The translations under genes and the position numbers were made by a program. A stretch of DNA of 64,000 nucleotides. Source: Eubacteriales bacterium (GTDB lineage: Bacteria; Bacillota; Clostridia; Peptostreptococcales; Anaerovoracaceae). The DNA lies in the NCBI GenBank assembly GCA_028872475.1, contig JAQYMQ010000021.1, positions 62,001 to 126,000 of the forward strand. Direction: 5' to 3'. The notes under the pieces were generated by a model. That model made no database searches, was not told the origin of the DNA, and saw only the letters and a program-made list of their open reading frames with translations. Shown here piece by piece: positions 56,329 through 64,000 of the stretch (position 1 is its first letter; each line of letters starts with the position of its first letter).

Positions 56329-57168
56329 ATGACTTTGAGAATACCTGAAAGAATTGTTGGGTTTTTAGAATTACAAAATTTAAAATTCTCATTTGAATTT
56401 GATAAAGATAAATTTGAACTAAAACTCTATCATACAACTGAAAATGATGCGTATGAGCGGATATTTGAAGGAGTTAAGAGATTTGGCTTTGATTTAAAAA
56501 AACATAAGTGGGTAGATAAAATTACTATTAAAGGTAAGACAGCCGAGATGTATTTGGTATATTTCGGAACATTGGATAATCCGAGTATTTATAATGGTTA
56601 TTATACATATAAAGTTGATTGGTATTATATTACAGATGATGATGATGAGTTTATTGATGAGATTAGATTTTATGGTAGAGAAATTGATTATTTTTATAGT
56701 CCATCACGTACTTTTCAACAAAAGATAAAATTCAAAAATGAAAAGTATAATCAAGTTGAATATATGGGAGTTAAGACTGTAGATTGTGAGGCATTAAATG
56801 GCGGAAGTTATATTTCTGGGGATGTTAATGTTGAAATATTTTGTGATTCATATGCGACAATGCACCCATTGGCAGCAATGCCTCTAGCTTCAAAATCATA
56901 TTTTAGGATGAAATTTTCTCATAAAATTGATATTGATGAGATGATAGATAAAGTACGAGATGTAGAGAGATTTTTTGAATACGTAAGTTATAGGACTAAT
57001 GTTAATTTTACGGACATTTCAACATATATTGTTATCGAAAAAGGAAAAGTGAGAAACTGTGGAAAGCTTGTATTTAAAATGGAATGTAAAGGAGAGCAGA
57101 ATGAGAAAGCAAAAAAACGCATCATAAGAGCTGAATATCTTGATAACCATATGGCTGATATCCTATAA
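56329..57168 (+). CDS. ApeA-like HEPN protein, N-terminal part before an in-frame stop
   Basis: A 279-aa ORF with a beta-rich, Tyr/Phe/Asp-rich sequence of the kind found in the N-terminal domain of ApeA (Apea/HEPN) anti-phage proteins; the family call rests mostly on the HEPN part downstream. A single TAA (57166-57168) ends it, but the same frame stays open after 18 nt to the next ORF, so the original gene was 470 codons long (56329-57741). ATG follows AAAGGAG. As it stands the product would lack the nuclease domain. Confidence 0.6.
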   Translation: MTLRIPERIVGFLELQNLKFSFEFDKDKFELKLYHTTENDAYERIFEGVKRFGFDLKKHKWVDKITIKGKTAEMYLVYFGTLDNPSIYNGYYTYKVDWYYITDDDDEFIDEIRFYGREIDYFYSPSRTFQQKIKFKNEKYNQVEYMGVKTVDCEALNGGSYISGDVNVEIFCDSYATMHPLAAMPLASKSYFRMKFSHKIDIDEMIDKVRDVERFFEYVSYRTNVNFTDISTYIVIEKGKVRNCGKLVFKMECKGEQNEKAKKRIIRAEYLDNHMADIL

Positions 57169-60409: not shown

Positions 60410-61885
60410 ATGATTACTTTTTTAATTGGATTGTTGATTCTTATTGTTGGTGGTATGCTCTACGGTAGATACTGTGAAAAGGTATTTGGACCGGATGATA
60501 GAGATACTCCGGCAGTAGCTTTGGGGGATGGTGTTGACTATGTACCTATGAGGAATTGGAGAAACTCGCTAATTGAGTTACTTAACATAGCAGGTACTGG
60601 TCCGATTATCGGTCCTATTCAAGGTATTTTATTTGGACCGTTAGCGTTTATTACTATTCCTATTGGTAATATTTTGGCAGGTAGTATGCACGACTATTTC
60701 AGTGGAATGATTTCTATGAGAAATAATGGTGCGCAGATGCCAAGACTTATCCAGAAGTACTTAGGTAATAAGACTAGAGGTTTCTATAACATCGTTATTA
60801 TGATATTGATGTTGATGGTTGGTGCTGTATTTATTTACACTCCTGGAGACCTTATTGTTACTGACCTTTTGGGACAGAAGGCTACAGCAGGAAACGCTAC
60901 TACCTGGATTGTATATGGCGGAATTTTCTTATACTACTTGATAGCTACACTTTTCCCAATTGATAAGATTATCGGTAAGGTTTATCCGATCCTAGGTGCA
61001 ATCCTGCTTATCAGTGCTATTGGTATATTTGTAGGAATTTTATTCAACTCATCAGGATTACAGAATCTAGATGTTACAAATATTAAAGTGCAGAATATTT
61101 CAGGAAGCCCATGGATTCCTATTTTCTTCATTACAGTTGCCTGCGGTATCTTAAGTGGATTCCACGCAACTCAGGCTACATTGATTTCTCGTTCTGTTAA
61201 GAGCGAAAGACACGGTCGTATGACTTTCTTTAACATGATGCTTGTTGAAGGCTTTATCGCAATGTGCTGGGCAGCCGGTGCAATGATTCTATTTAATGGC
61301 GGAATCGATGTTAAGACTCCTGCTACTCTAATGATTGGTAACATCAGTAGAGAATTCCTAGGTGGTATCGGTGCATACTTTGCTATTGCAGGTGTTATCG
61401 TACTTCCTATTACTTCAGGAGACACAGCGCTTCGTTCACTACGTTTGATGATTGCAGAGCATTTCCATATCGATCAGGTAAAATGGTCTAAGCGTGTAAT
61501 GGTTTCAGCTGCTATATTCGTTCCTGTTATCTTTATCCTAGTTTGGGCAAAATTACAGCCTGCAGGATTCAGCTTACTATGGAGATACTTCGCATTTACT
61601 AACCAGTTTATCGCAATCTTTGCATTGAGCATGATTACTGTATACTTGAGCATTCACCAGAAGAATCGTCTGATTTCATTGATTCCTGGAATGTTCTATA
61701 CATTCGTAGTAATGAGCTTCATATTACATGCAAGTATCGGATTTAACTTAGATACATTGTTTGGAAGAGCTGACTATATGATCAGTTATGTTGTTGCAGG
61801 TGTAATCACTGTGCTATATGCATATCTAACATTGAACTATGCTAAGAAACACGGTATGAGTATAGAAGACAGAAAACTGGTTTAA
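60410..61885 (+). CDS. CstA-family carbon starvation/peptide transporter
   Basis: A 491-aa membrane protein with about thirteen hydrophobic segments. Family motifs: YGRYCEKVFGPDDRDTPA at the start, NIAGTGPIIGPIQG, GSMHDYFSGMISMRNNG and ITSGDTALRSLRLM. CstA proteins import peptides or pyruvate. It is shorter than E. coli CstA (about 700 aa) and resembles the clostridial short form. It is a single gene, ended by a terminator at 61974. Confidence 0.9.
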   Translation: MITFLIGLLILIVGGMLYGRYCEKVFGPDDRDTPAVALGDGVDYVPMRNWRNSLIELLNIAGTGPIIGPIQGILFGPLAFITIPIGNILAGSMHDYFSGMISMRNNGAQMPRLIQKYLGNKTRGFYNIVIMILMLMVGAVFIYTPGDLIVTDLLGQKATAGNATTWIVYGGIFLYYLIATLFPIDKIIGKVYPILGAILLISAIGIFVGILFNSSGLQNLDVTNIKVQNISGSPWIPIFFITVACGILSGFHATQATLISRSVKSERHGRMTFFNMMLVEGFIAMCWAAGAMILFNGGIDVKTPATLMIGNISREFLGGIGAYFAIAGVIVLPITSGDTALRSLRLMIAEHFHIDQVKWSKRVMVSAAIFVPVIFILVWAKLQPAGFSLLWRYFAFTNQFIAIFALSMITVYLSIHQKNRLISLIPGMFYTFVVMSFILHASIGFNLDTLFGRADYMISYVVAGVITVLYAYLTLNYAKKHGMSIEDRKLV

Positions 61886-61973
61886 TGGTCTTAATATTCT
61901 GTTAGCTAAGCTTTAATATTGATAAATAAAGCTAACTAAAAACTTGTTTATAGATATATACTTAATAAACTAT

Positions 61974-62006
61974 AATGGCTTCGTCTTTTGAGATGAGGCC
62001 ATTTTT
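61974..62006 (+). terminator. Intrinsic terminator after the CstA-family gene
   Basis: AATGGCTTCGTCT pairs with AGATGAGGCCATT, with some G-U pairs and a TTTTG loop, then TTTTTA. A further inverted repeat (GTTAGCT/AGCTAAC, about 61901-61936) precedes it. Confidence 0.75.
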
Positions 62007-62093
62007 AATAGGATTGTATTTGGGATTGAGATTTTACTTATGGGATGTTCAGTTTAGTATTGAAGGTGAATATTAAAATAAAAAATTAAATAC

Positions 62094-62122
62094 TTGACAC
62101 AATCTATTAAAAGTGTTAAATT
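62094..62122 (+). promoter_or_regulatory. Promoter of the metN leader transcript
   Basis: TTGACA and TAAATT with a 17-bp spacer. Transcription would begin near 62129 and run through the Met-rich leader peptide, then the terminator, then metN. Confidence 0.75.
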
Positions 62123-62168
62123 TATAGACAAGCAGTTAAATTTGTTTGAAATGGAAAGGAGATATGTC

Positions 62169-62264
62169 ATGAGAAACCATACAAGCAACGCTACAATGAT
62201 GATGAATATGATGGGCATGTGCATGTCTAACAAATCCATAGGTAAGTTTTCAACCAACAGCTAG
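62169..62264 (+). CDS. Methionine-rich leader peptide of metN (31 aa)
   Basis: An ATG preceded by GGAAAGGAG (8-nt spacing) opens a 31-aa frame, MRNHTSNA-TMMMNMMGMCM-SNKSIGKFSTNS. Eight of 31 residues are Met, seven of them within 11 codons. It is too short for the ORF track. It lies 110 nt before metN and is followed by an intrinsic terminator. The layout (promoter, short peptide dense in the regulating amino acid, terminator, transporter for that amino acid) is that of ribosome-mediated attenuation. Its being translated is inferred, not shown. Confidence 0.75.
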   Translation: MRNHTSNATMMMNMMGMCMSNKSIGKFSTNS

Positions 62265-62276
62265 CTGCGTCGAAAT

Positions 62277-62293
62277 TACCGCTTTTTGCGGTA
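62277..62293 (+). other. Leader hairpin between the Met peptide and the terminator
   Basis: TACCGC and GCGGTA form a perfect 6-bp stem with a T5 loop. It could take part in the switch between anti-terminated and terminated forms; alternative pairings were not resolved by hand. Confidence 0.55.
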
Positions 62294-62317
62294 GGGGAAT
62301 ATTCATAGGGATTATAG

Positions 62318-62348
62318 GCAGATAACTAAAAGGTTGTCTGCTTTTTTT
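62318..62348 (+). terminator. Terminator in the metN leader
   Basis: GCAGATAAC pairs with GTTGTCTGC (one G-U pair) around a 6-nt loop and is followed by seven Ts. It lies after the leader peptide and 31 nt before metN, so it would stop transcription of metN unless bypassed. Confidence 0.85.
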
Positions 62349-62378
62349 ATGAATTGTACAGATTAGGGGGAAGATAAA

Positions 62379-63422
62379 TTGGAAAGAACACCTTTAATAC
62401 AATTGCAAGATGTTACGAAGTTGTTTGAGAGTAAGAACGGAACAGTGAAAGCGTTAGATAATATCAATCTTACCGTTGATAAGGGCGACATCTTCGGAAT
62501 TATAGGATTGTCCGGAGCCGGCAAGAGTACTCTTGTAAGATGTATGAATTTATTAGAGAAACCAACTTTTGGTAAGGTTATGATAGGAGATAAAAATCTT
62601 CTTGAACTTAACGAAAAAGAATTAAATACTACAAGACATCAAATATCTATGATTTTCCAGCATTTTAACTTGTTGATGCAAAAGACGGTTATAGAGAATA
62701 TATGTTTTCCGCTTGAAATTATAGGGGTACCTAAGAAGGAAGCGGAAGAGAAGGCGAGAGAGCTTTTAGAGGTTGTAGAACTTTCAGAAAAGGAAAATGC
62801 ATATCCTTCACAGTTATCAGGCGGACAGAAGCAGAGGGTTGCGATTGCAAGAGCTTTAGCAAGTAGTCCACAAGTTATCCTTTGCGATGAGGCTACGAGT
62901 GCACTTGACCCAAAGACTACGAAGTCAATATTGCAACTTCTTGAGAGTATCAATAAGAAGTATGGCATTACTATTGTAATTATTACTCACGAGATGAAGG
63001 TGGTTCAGCAGGTTTGCCACAAGGTAGCGATTATAGATAGAGGTAAGGTTGTTGAGCAGGGCAATGTAGGTGAGATTTTTGCAAAACCTCAGACGGATGT
63101 TGCGAAGAAGTTGATATTACCATTTGAAACGGGTACAGAAGATTTTAAGGGTTCTAAGTCAAAGTTTATAAGAATTGTATTTGATGAGCAGGCTGCGATT
63201 GAGCCGATTGTATCTAAGATGACGCTTGCTTGTAACTCGTTTGTAAACATCGTGTATGCAAATATGCAGAGAGTAGATGGAAGACCGCACGGTCAGATGA
63301 TTATTCAGCTGGATGATGATGAATTTAAGGCAGCTAGACAGCTCGGATTTTTGAAGAGTTTTGGCGATAGGATAAAGTTTGAAGAAGTTAAAGAGATTGA
63401 AGATGTAGAGGGGGTGGAATAA
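62379..63422 (+). CDS. metN: Methionine ABC transporter ATP-binding protein
   Basis: A 347-aa ATPase of the methionine importer. Walker A LSGAGKSTLVRCMNLLEKPT, signature LSGGQKQR, Walker B LCDEATSALDP, and a C-terminal NIL domain (about 270-340) that senses methionine in MetN proteins (transinhibition). The TTG start follows AGGGGGAAG. The last stop base is shared with the first base of metI (TAATG). The terminator and leader peptide upstream fit control by methionine. Confidence 0.95.
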   Translation: MERTPLIQLQDVTKLFESKNGTVKALDNINLTVDKGDIFGIIGLSGAGKSTLVRCMNLLEKPTFGKVMIGDKNLLELNEKELNTTRHQISMIFQHFNLLMQKTVIENICFPLEIIGVPKKEAEEKARELLEVVELSEKENAYPSQLSGGQKQRVAIARALASSPQVILCDEATSALDPKTTKSILQLLESINKKYGITIVIITHEMKVVQQVCHKVAIIDRGKVVEQGNVGEIFAKPQTDVAKKLILPFETGTEDFKGSKSKFIRIVFDEQAAIEPIVSKMTLACNSFVNIVYANMQRVDGRPHGQMIIQLDDDEFKAARQLGFLKSFGDRIKFEEVKEIEDVEGVE

Positions 63423-64000
63423 TGACTGAGATGATACTTAGCGAAACGTGGGTCACTATATATATGACTCTGATTTCAACGGCTATAGCCTATTTGCTCG
63501 GTCTTCCTATGGGCATCATCCTCGCAGTGACAGCCAATGACGGAATCAAGCCAAATAGGTTTATAAATGGAGTTTTAGGGGTAATAGTGAACATTATCAG
63601 ATCAATTCCATTCTTAATCCTTATTATAGCAATTCAGCCATTTTCTAAACTTGTGGTAGGATCTATGATGGGCAATAATGCAACGATTGTCGGTCTAGTA
63701 GTTGCAGCGGCGCCGTTTGTAGCTAGATTGGTAGAAACGTCTATCAAGGAAATTGATCCAGGGGTAATCGAGGCAGCGCAGTCAATGGGTGCTACAAGAT
63801 GGCAGATTATCAGAAAGGTAATGCTTGTTGAAGCGAAGCCGTCAATAATGTTAGGGTCAGTAGTTGCAGTTATTACGCTGTTGGGTTACACAGCGATGGC
63901 AGGACTTATCGGTGGTGGCGGACTTGGAACAATCGCATTAAATTATGGTCTATACAGATTTGACCCACAGACAATGTGGATTGCCATAGCAGTTTTAGTG
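63422..64000 (+). CDS. metI: Methionine ABC transporter permease (partial, runs off the window)
   Basis: Starts at the ATG at 63422 and stays open to the window end (193 codons seen; MetI is about 215-220 aa). It shows the MetI start MTEMILSETWVTIYMTL, IRSIPFLILIIAI, the EAA loop (EAAQSMGATRWQIIRKVML) that docks with MetN, and GGGGLGTIALNYG. It is missing from the ORF track because it has no stop inside the window. A metQ substrate-binding lipoprotein gene would be expected beyond the edge. Confidence 0.95.
   Translation, partial: MTEMILSETWVTIYMTLISTAIAYLLGLPMGIILAVTANDGIKPNRFINGVLGVIVNIIRSIPFLILIIAIQPFSKLVVGSMMGNNATIVGLVVAAAPFVARLVETSIKEIDPGVIEAAQSMGATRWQIIRKVMLVEAKPSIMLGSVVAVITLLGYTAMAGLIGGGGLGTIALNYGLYRFDPQTMWIAIAVLV

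Follow-up and report, generated by a model that had tools for sequence, protein, structure and literature searches.

Our analysis of a 64 kb window (the whole stretch of DNA examined, 64,000 nucleotides) indicates that the leader of the methionine importer operon metNI(Q) is very probably a ribosome-mediated transcription attenuator, which would couple methionine import to the supply of methionyl-tRNA. A preliminary description of this DNA had proposed such control because a 31-aa peptide with eight Met is encoded ahead of metNI; the ORF, the Met count and the Shine-Dalgarno sequence were all confirmed (Table 1). Neither of the two refutation tests that were run, a search for a known riboswitch in the leader and a comparison with relatives for hairpins kept without the Met codons, went against this reading.

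The leader ORF concentrates seven of its eight Met within 11 codons (TMMMNMMGMCM), a density that none of 20,000 copies of the leader generated by a second-order Markov model attained. Across the six frames of the 64 kb, five or more Met in 11 codons occurred in one other place (at 56627); the Met run ILQMMMMSLLM (56594-56728, + strand) was rejected as a leader, since it comes from reading a 279-aa gene (56329-57168) out of frame. The cstA-like gene upstream ends in a strong terminator of its own, so that the leader probably opens a separate transcription unit. The promoter claimed at 62094 does exist as a pair of hexamers, and its position fits a separate leader transcript, but promoter-like sites near the leader are no commoner than chance (6 found, 6.0 expected). 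The middle hairpin of the leader, described earlier as 6 bp, was located and has seven pairs, one of them a wobble, while the intrinsic terminator reported ahead of metN was upheld by comparison with shuffled sequences. The product of metN scored 354 bits against the NCBIfam MetN model TIGR02314, under the curated cut-off of 499.7, with the operon context in support of the assignment.

Table 1. Features of the importer leader, its neighbouring genes and the metK locus of the host genome. Energies are in kcal/mol and z values are relative to shuffled sequences; L255 and L256 are loci of the host genome outside the window.
Feature	Position	Strand	Basis
Intrinsic terminator of upstream cstA-like gene, 13-bp hairpin then UUUUU	61974..62004	+	-17.8, z -7.4
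Candidate sigma-70-type promoter, TTGACA-17-TAAATT, TG ahead of second hexamer	62094..62122	+	Weak
Leader-ORF Shine-Dalgarno AAAGGAG, ATG 7 nt further on	62155..62161	+	Sequence
Leader ORF MRNHTSNATMMMNMMGMCMSNKSIGKFSTNS, 31 aa/31 codons, eight Met including start	62169..62264 (ATG..TAG; stop 62262-62264)	+	Sequence
Putative sensing codons MMMNMMGMCM (seven Met, one Cys)	62196..62225	+	Sequence and pattern searches
Proposed antiterminator 5' strand, CAACC and UAGCUGC, across the stop codon	62251..62268	+	Minimum-energy fold of 62238-62336
Hairpin UUACCGC-UUUUU-GCGGUAG, within proposed antiterminator loop	62276..62294	+	Fold, 7 pairs, one wobble
Intrinsic terminator, 12-bp stem (62316-62343) and U-run	62316..62348	+	-15.2, z -5.5
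Proposed antiterminator 3' strand, made up of the terminator 5' arm and loop and the first part of the 3' arm	62318..62336	+	Same fold as 5' strand
metN, methionine importer ATPase, TTG start	62379..63422	+	Best NCBIfam match TIGR02314 and operon context
metI, methionine importer permease, runs beyond window end	63422..64000	+	Best match MetI NF008049
metQ, after metI, outside window	L256 367-1188		Position in the genome
SAM-I riboswitch and metK	L255 1606-1704 and 1737-2945		

Accounts of methionine control in Firmicutes invoke SAM riboswitches, methionine T-boxes and repressors, the SAM-I riboswitch (S-box, RF00162) exerting termination control over methionine and SAM genes. The importer leader was earlier said to hold no S-box, T-box or other known riboswitch, and the Rfam search bears this out, there being no match up to E=1 in the leader region (61500-63000); two matches with E of 1-10, to a small nucleolar RNA and a ribozyme, fell far under the cut-offs and were set aside as chance. 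No covariance-model match to SAM-I, to other Rfam riboswitches or to the T-box (RF00230) was present in the window leader or in the leaders of relatives. This negative result is meaningful because a SAM riboswitch was detected in the Lysinibacillus metN leader (L040) of the same series. The single SAM-I riboswitch of the host genome lies immediately upstream of metK, and both of its two T-boxes lie away from the importer leader; the genome would divide its sensing, with the SAM-I riboswitch on metK and the Met leader on the importer. Genomes of the host's family carried 0 to 11 T-box matches each, those of the order's other families 7 to 26; T-boxes may have given way to leader peptides on a wider scale.

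Conservation of the Met codons, which the preliminary description had named as the comparison to make, was evident in the host's family, where 20 genera have a Met/Cys-rich leader ORF ahead of metN or of a metQ that is itself followed by metN; in a further 12 genera with metN the 1.5-2 kb searched held no Met-rich leader, one genus was doubtful and two were not judgeable. A gene-blind DNA pattern for MMxMCM (ATGATGNNNATGTGYATG) gave 56 matches in 395 genomes, and metN or metQ stands downstream of approximately 40 of these; its reversed-pattern control gave 0. Beyond the host's family, single cases in Clostridia were Anaerocolumna aminovalerica DSM 1283 (L017), L015, L021, L052 and L307; class-wide the pattern had many matches, and among the loci retrieved L307 alone lay before metN. 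In one large genus, a core like MMMEMGMMGMCMC is common to about 39 species and always stands before metN where the contig permits; the start and the core are 33 or 36 nt apart in all cases measured, so that insertions and deletions preserve the frame as expected of a translated ORF. Together with the Shine-Dalgarno sequence, these frame-keeping indels give indirect support to the view that the leader ORF is probably translated. Between genera, the number and order of Met vary freely (MMMNMMGMCM, MMMGMCMTMGMC, MNMMMCCGHMCGSMYM), and peptide length ranges from about 20 to 44 aa, composition alone being conserved. The relatives have kept the Met codons while the hairpin sequences diverged, the opposite of the pattern that was held to speak against attenuation.

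The residues following the start in 21 leaders comprised 22.6% Met and 8.4% Cys, compared with 2.9% and 0.9% in the larger ORFs of the window. Given this enrichment of Cys codons alongside Met, joint reading of the two sulfur amino acids seems possible. Gly and Cys codons vary synonymously between genera (GGC/GGT/GGG, TGC/TGT), so at least part of the selection is on the identity of the peptide or of the codons. We tentatively consider it possible, with some doubt, that the leaders form a Clostridia attenuator family whose Met and Cys codons, mixed along a single peptide, read the charging of both Met-tRNA and Cys-tRNA for methionine import; the family would then have replaced SAM riboswitch and T-box control of the operon, with the SAM riboswitch retained at metK. 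A mainly-Cys leader (MKKFLNSAEAVRMCGCCCMCMESDCSS) was observed in genus g17 (L314), approximately 1.3 kb ahead of metN.

An intrinsic terminator was found 18-114 nt past the ORF stop in 33 of the 33 leaders examined. The RNA between the end of the Met run and the terminator pairs with the 5' arm and loop of the terminator above dinucleotide-shuffled RNA (combined p 3e-12, a significance that is overstated as the rows are related). Truncated transcripts of 21 leaders spread over genera were folded as they would stand when RNA polymerase has made three quarters of the terminator. Upstream RNA then paired with the 5' arm at a mean of 0.56 with the ribosome on the Met run and 0.23 with the ribosome at the stop, compared with 0.42 and 0.29 for shuffled RNA (Wilcoxon p 0.002 for the difference); the ribosome-dependent change was absent or reversed in 5 of the 21. 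Equilibrium folding with the full terminator showed no switching, the terminator being favoured in nearly all leaders, and the switch must therefore be kinetic. Near-perfect antiterminators occur in Anaerocolumna (L017), where UGUGCUUGUUAUGAUACCUGA pairs with ACAGGUACAUAACGGUAUC, and in L114 and L236, with further strong single cases in L246 and L106/L107.

Folding of alternative structures also allowed the antiterminator, which the preliminary description had been unable to resolve, to be placed in the window, with weak single-sequence support. The minimum-energy fold predicts CAACC:GGUUG plus CUGC:GCAG between the two strands listed in Table 1, and this structure vanishes if the RNA begins at 62276, mimicking a ribosome at the stop. 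The corresponding pairing of the terminator 5' arm with upstream RNA was 0.46 with the ribosome on the Met codons and 0.15 at the stop. For the window alone, the antiterminator was no better than shuffled RNA (duplex p 0.15; fold z -0.2); the homologous leader L235, read by hand, is able to form a similar pair.

From the anatomy of the leader and the known behaviour of attenuators we infer leader translation, tRNA dependence and the direction of the response; the stall, the identity of the sensed tRNA, the read-through and the exact pairing in the window are likewise put conditionally here. A ribosome would begin the 31-codon leader soon after the leader is transcribed. With charged Met-tRNA (perhaps also Cys-tRNA) plentiful, it would reach the stop at 62262 and cover 62251-62268, the terminator would fold and transcription would stop before metN. 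With charged Met-tRNA scarce, the ribosome would stall in the Met run (62196-62225) and leave 62251-62268 free to pair with 62318-62336 once that RNA is made, so that no terminator would form and metNI(Q) would be transcribed.

The large genus appears to follow a variant geometry. In an alignment of 36 of its species (A1), P1 and the terminator together held 22 double-change cells, all of them in the terminator, which covaries (0 of 500 shuffles). A fully paired stem, CAUAG:CUAUG, begins directly after the stop codon, the first 20 nt beyond the stop hardly vary (CATAGGATAAGGTCRTAACGAA), and GGUCRUAACGA, 12-24 nt past the stop, can pair with the terminator loop UCGUUAxGACC in 94% of cells (slid controls, 12-46%). 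With this element at that distance from the stop, plain covering by a ribosome at the stop fails to explain switching; less certainly, a ribosome there might block the CAUAG stem and hence the presentation of GGUCRUAACGA. In this genus, two tandem Met-rich leader ORFs were observed before metN at L183 301-520 (G212), the second (MMMELRMMDMCMCAPK) following the first terminator and having no terminator of its own in view. Two further loci retain the leader ORF, L162 without a terminator and L176 with a terminator that lacks its 3' arm, possibly reflecting loss of attenuation or a switch to another mode.

Among the alternatives, it is unlikely that the leader is an attenuator in which an arrest peptide stalls the ribosome by sensing a molecule such as methionine or SAM in the exit tunnel, and not uncharged tRNA. 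The very constant order and spacing of Met and Cys in the large genus, where non-Met codons of the core are also fixed, would suit an arrest peptide, but codons can also become fixed within one genus through base pairing between the core RNA and UUUCUCAU, and the freedom of Met number and order across genera is what codon sensing predicts rather than a fixed motif. Clusters of Met and Cys are also similar to copper ligands, and a good Shine-Dalgarno sequence stands before the ORF, as would be expected if it encoded a small protein with a role of its own, such as metal binding, and the terminator were incidental. Such a protein is very improbable given that between genera only composition is kept while length is not, that none of three leader peptides tested matched an NCBIfam family, and that the ORF lies nearly always before metN or metQ, always with a terminator downstream.

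The two remaining readings have less probability still, to a similar degree. An undescribed methionine- or SAM-binding riboswitch, with the ORF secondary, would find an argument in the near-invariant block after the stop in the large genus; other genera share the Met codons but not this block, most of which is explained by the base pairs that it forms with RNA downstream of it and with the terminator loop. Reinitiation at leader genes has been proposed in bacteria (PMC4833913) and could let the ORF boost metN translation with no control of termination, yet the distance from stop to metN is mostly above 100 nt with a strong terminator in between, and the enrichment of Met would be left unexplained. 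Attenuation governed by Met-tRNA charging is the reading that we prefer.

The closest described system is that of Streptomyces lividans, where a metL leader peptide containing Met and Cys (MSTTSDRTPATEATTTPGARCMCRRMCAF) is predicted before the same importer operon, metNIQ, as a proposed attenuator; the accessible part of that report concerns an Actinobacterium peptide with only two internal Met and a transcript starting at the start codon, its authors found no typical Rho-independent terminator, and the same part presents no comparative or structural test (PMC8079986). Histidine attenuators of Firmicutes likewise combine a codon-run leader peptide, a terminator and an alternative antiterminator in place of T-boxes, but they serve histidine biosynthesis and tRNA synthetase genes and not a methionine importer (PMC2965389, PMC9413887). 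The methionine T-box of Lactobacillales likewise responds to the charging state of tRNA-Met and is able to govern methionine uptake (PMC3766115), but it does so by direct binding of tRNA through a specifier loop and T-box sequence, neither of which is found in the importer leader. Cysteine leader peptides of Mycobacterium and Propionibacterium share the runs of sulfur amino acid codons in a short ORF, but these are of Cys only, stand before cys operons and had no terminator hairpins found with them (PMC1262725). The SAM-I riboswitch differs in sensing SAM directly and without translation, and in the host genome it stands before metK and not in the importer leader. No report of Met leaders in Clostridia was found in the literature searched, the main older comparison of methionine control in Gram-positive bacteria lying outside its coverage; the kind of mechanism is therefore known, and its Met specificity in Clostridia is undescribed as far as could be found, which is not proof of novelty.

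Met is a demanding case for such a sensor because AUG also starts proteins, and a Met-starved cell must still begin translation of the leader. If the proposed attenuation is correct, Met-codon sensing through translation, present in at least 20 genera, would represent an additional route of methionine control in Firmicutes and would account for the control of metNIQ where a riboswitch was not found. One such leader is carried by a type strain, Anaerocolumna aminovalerica DSM 1283. A single cell would then separate the sensing of SAM, by the metK riboswitch, from the sensing of Met-tRNA at the importer.
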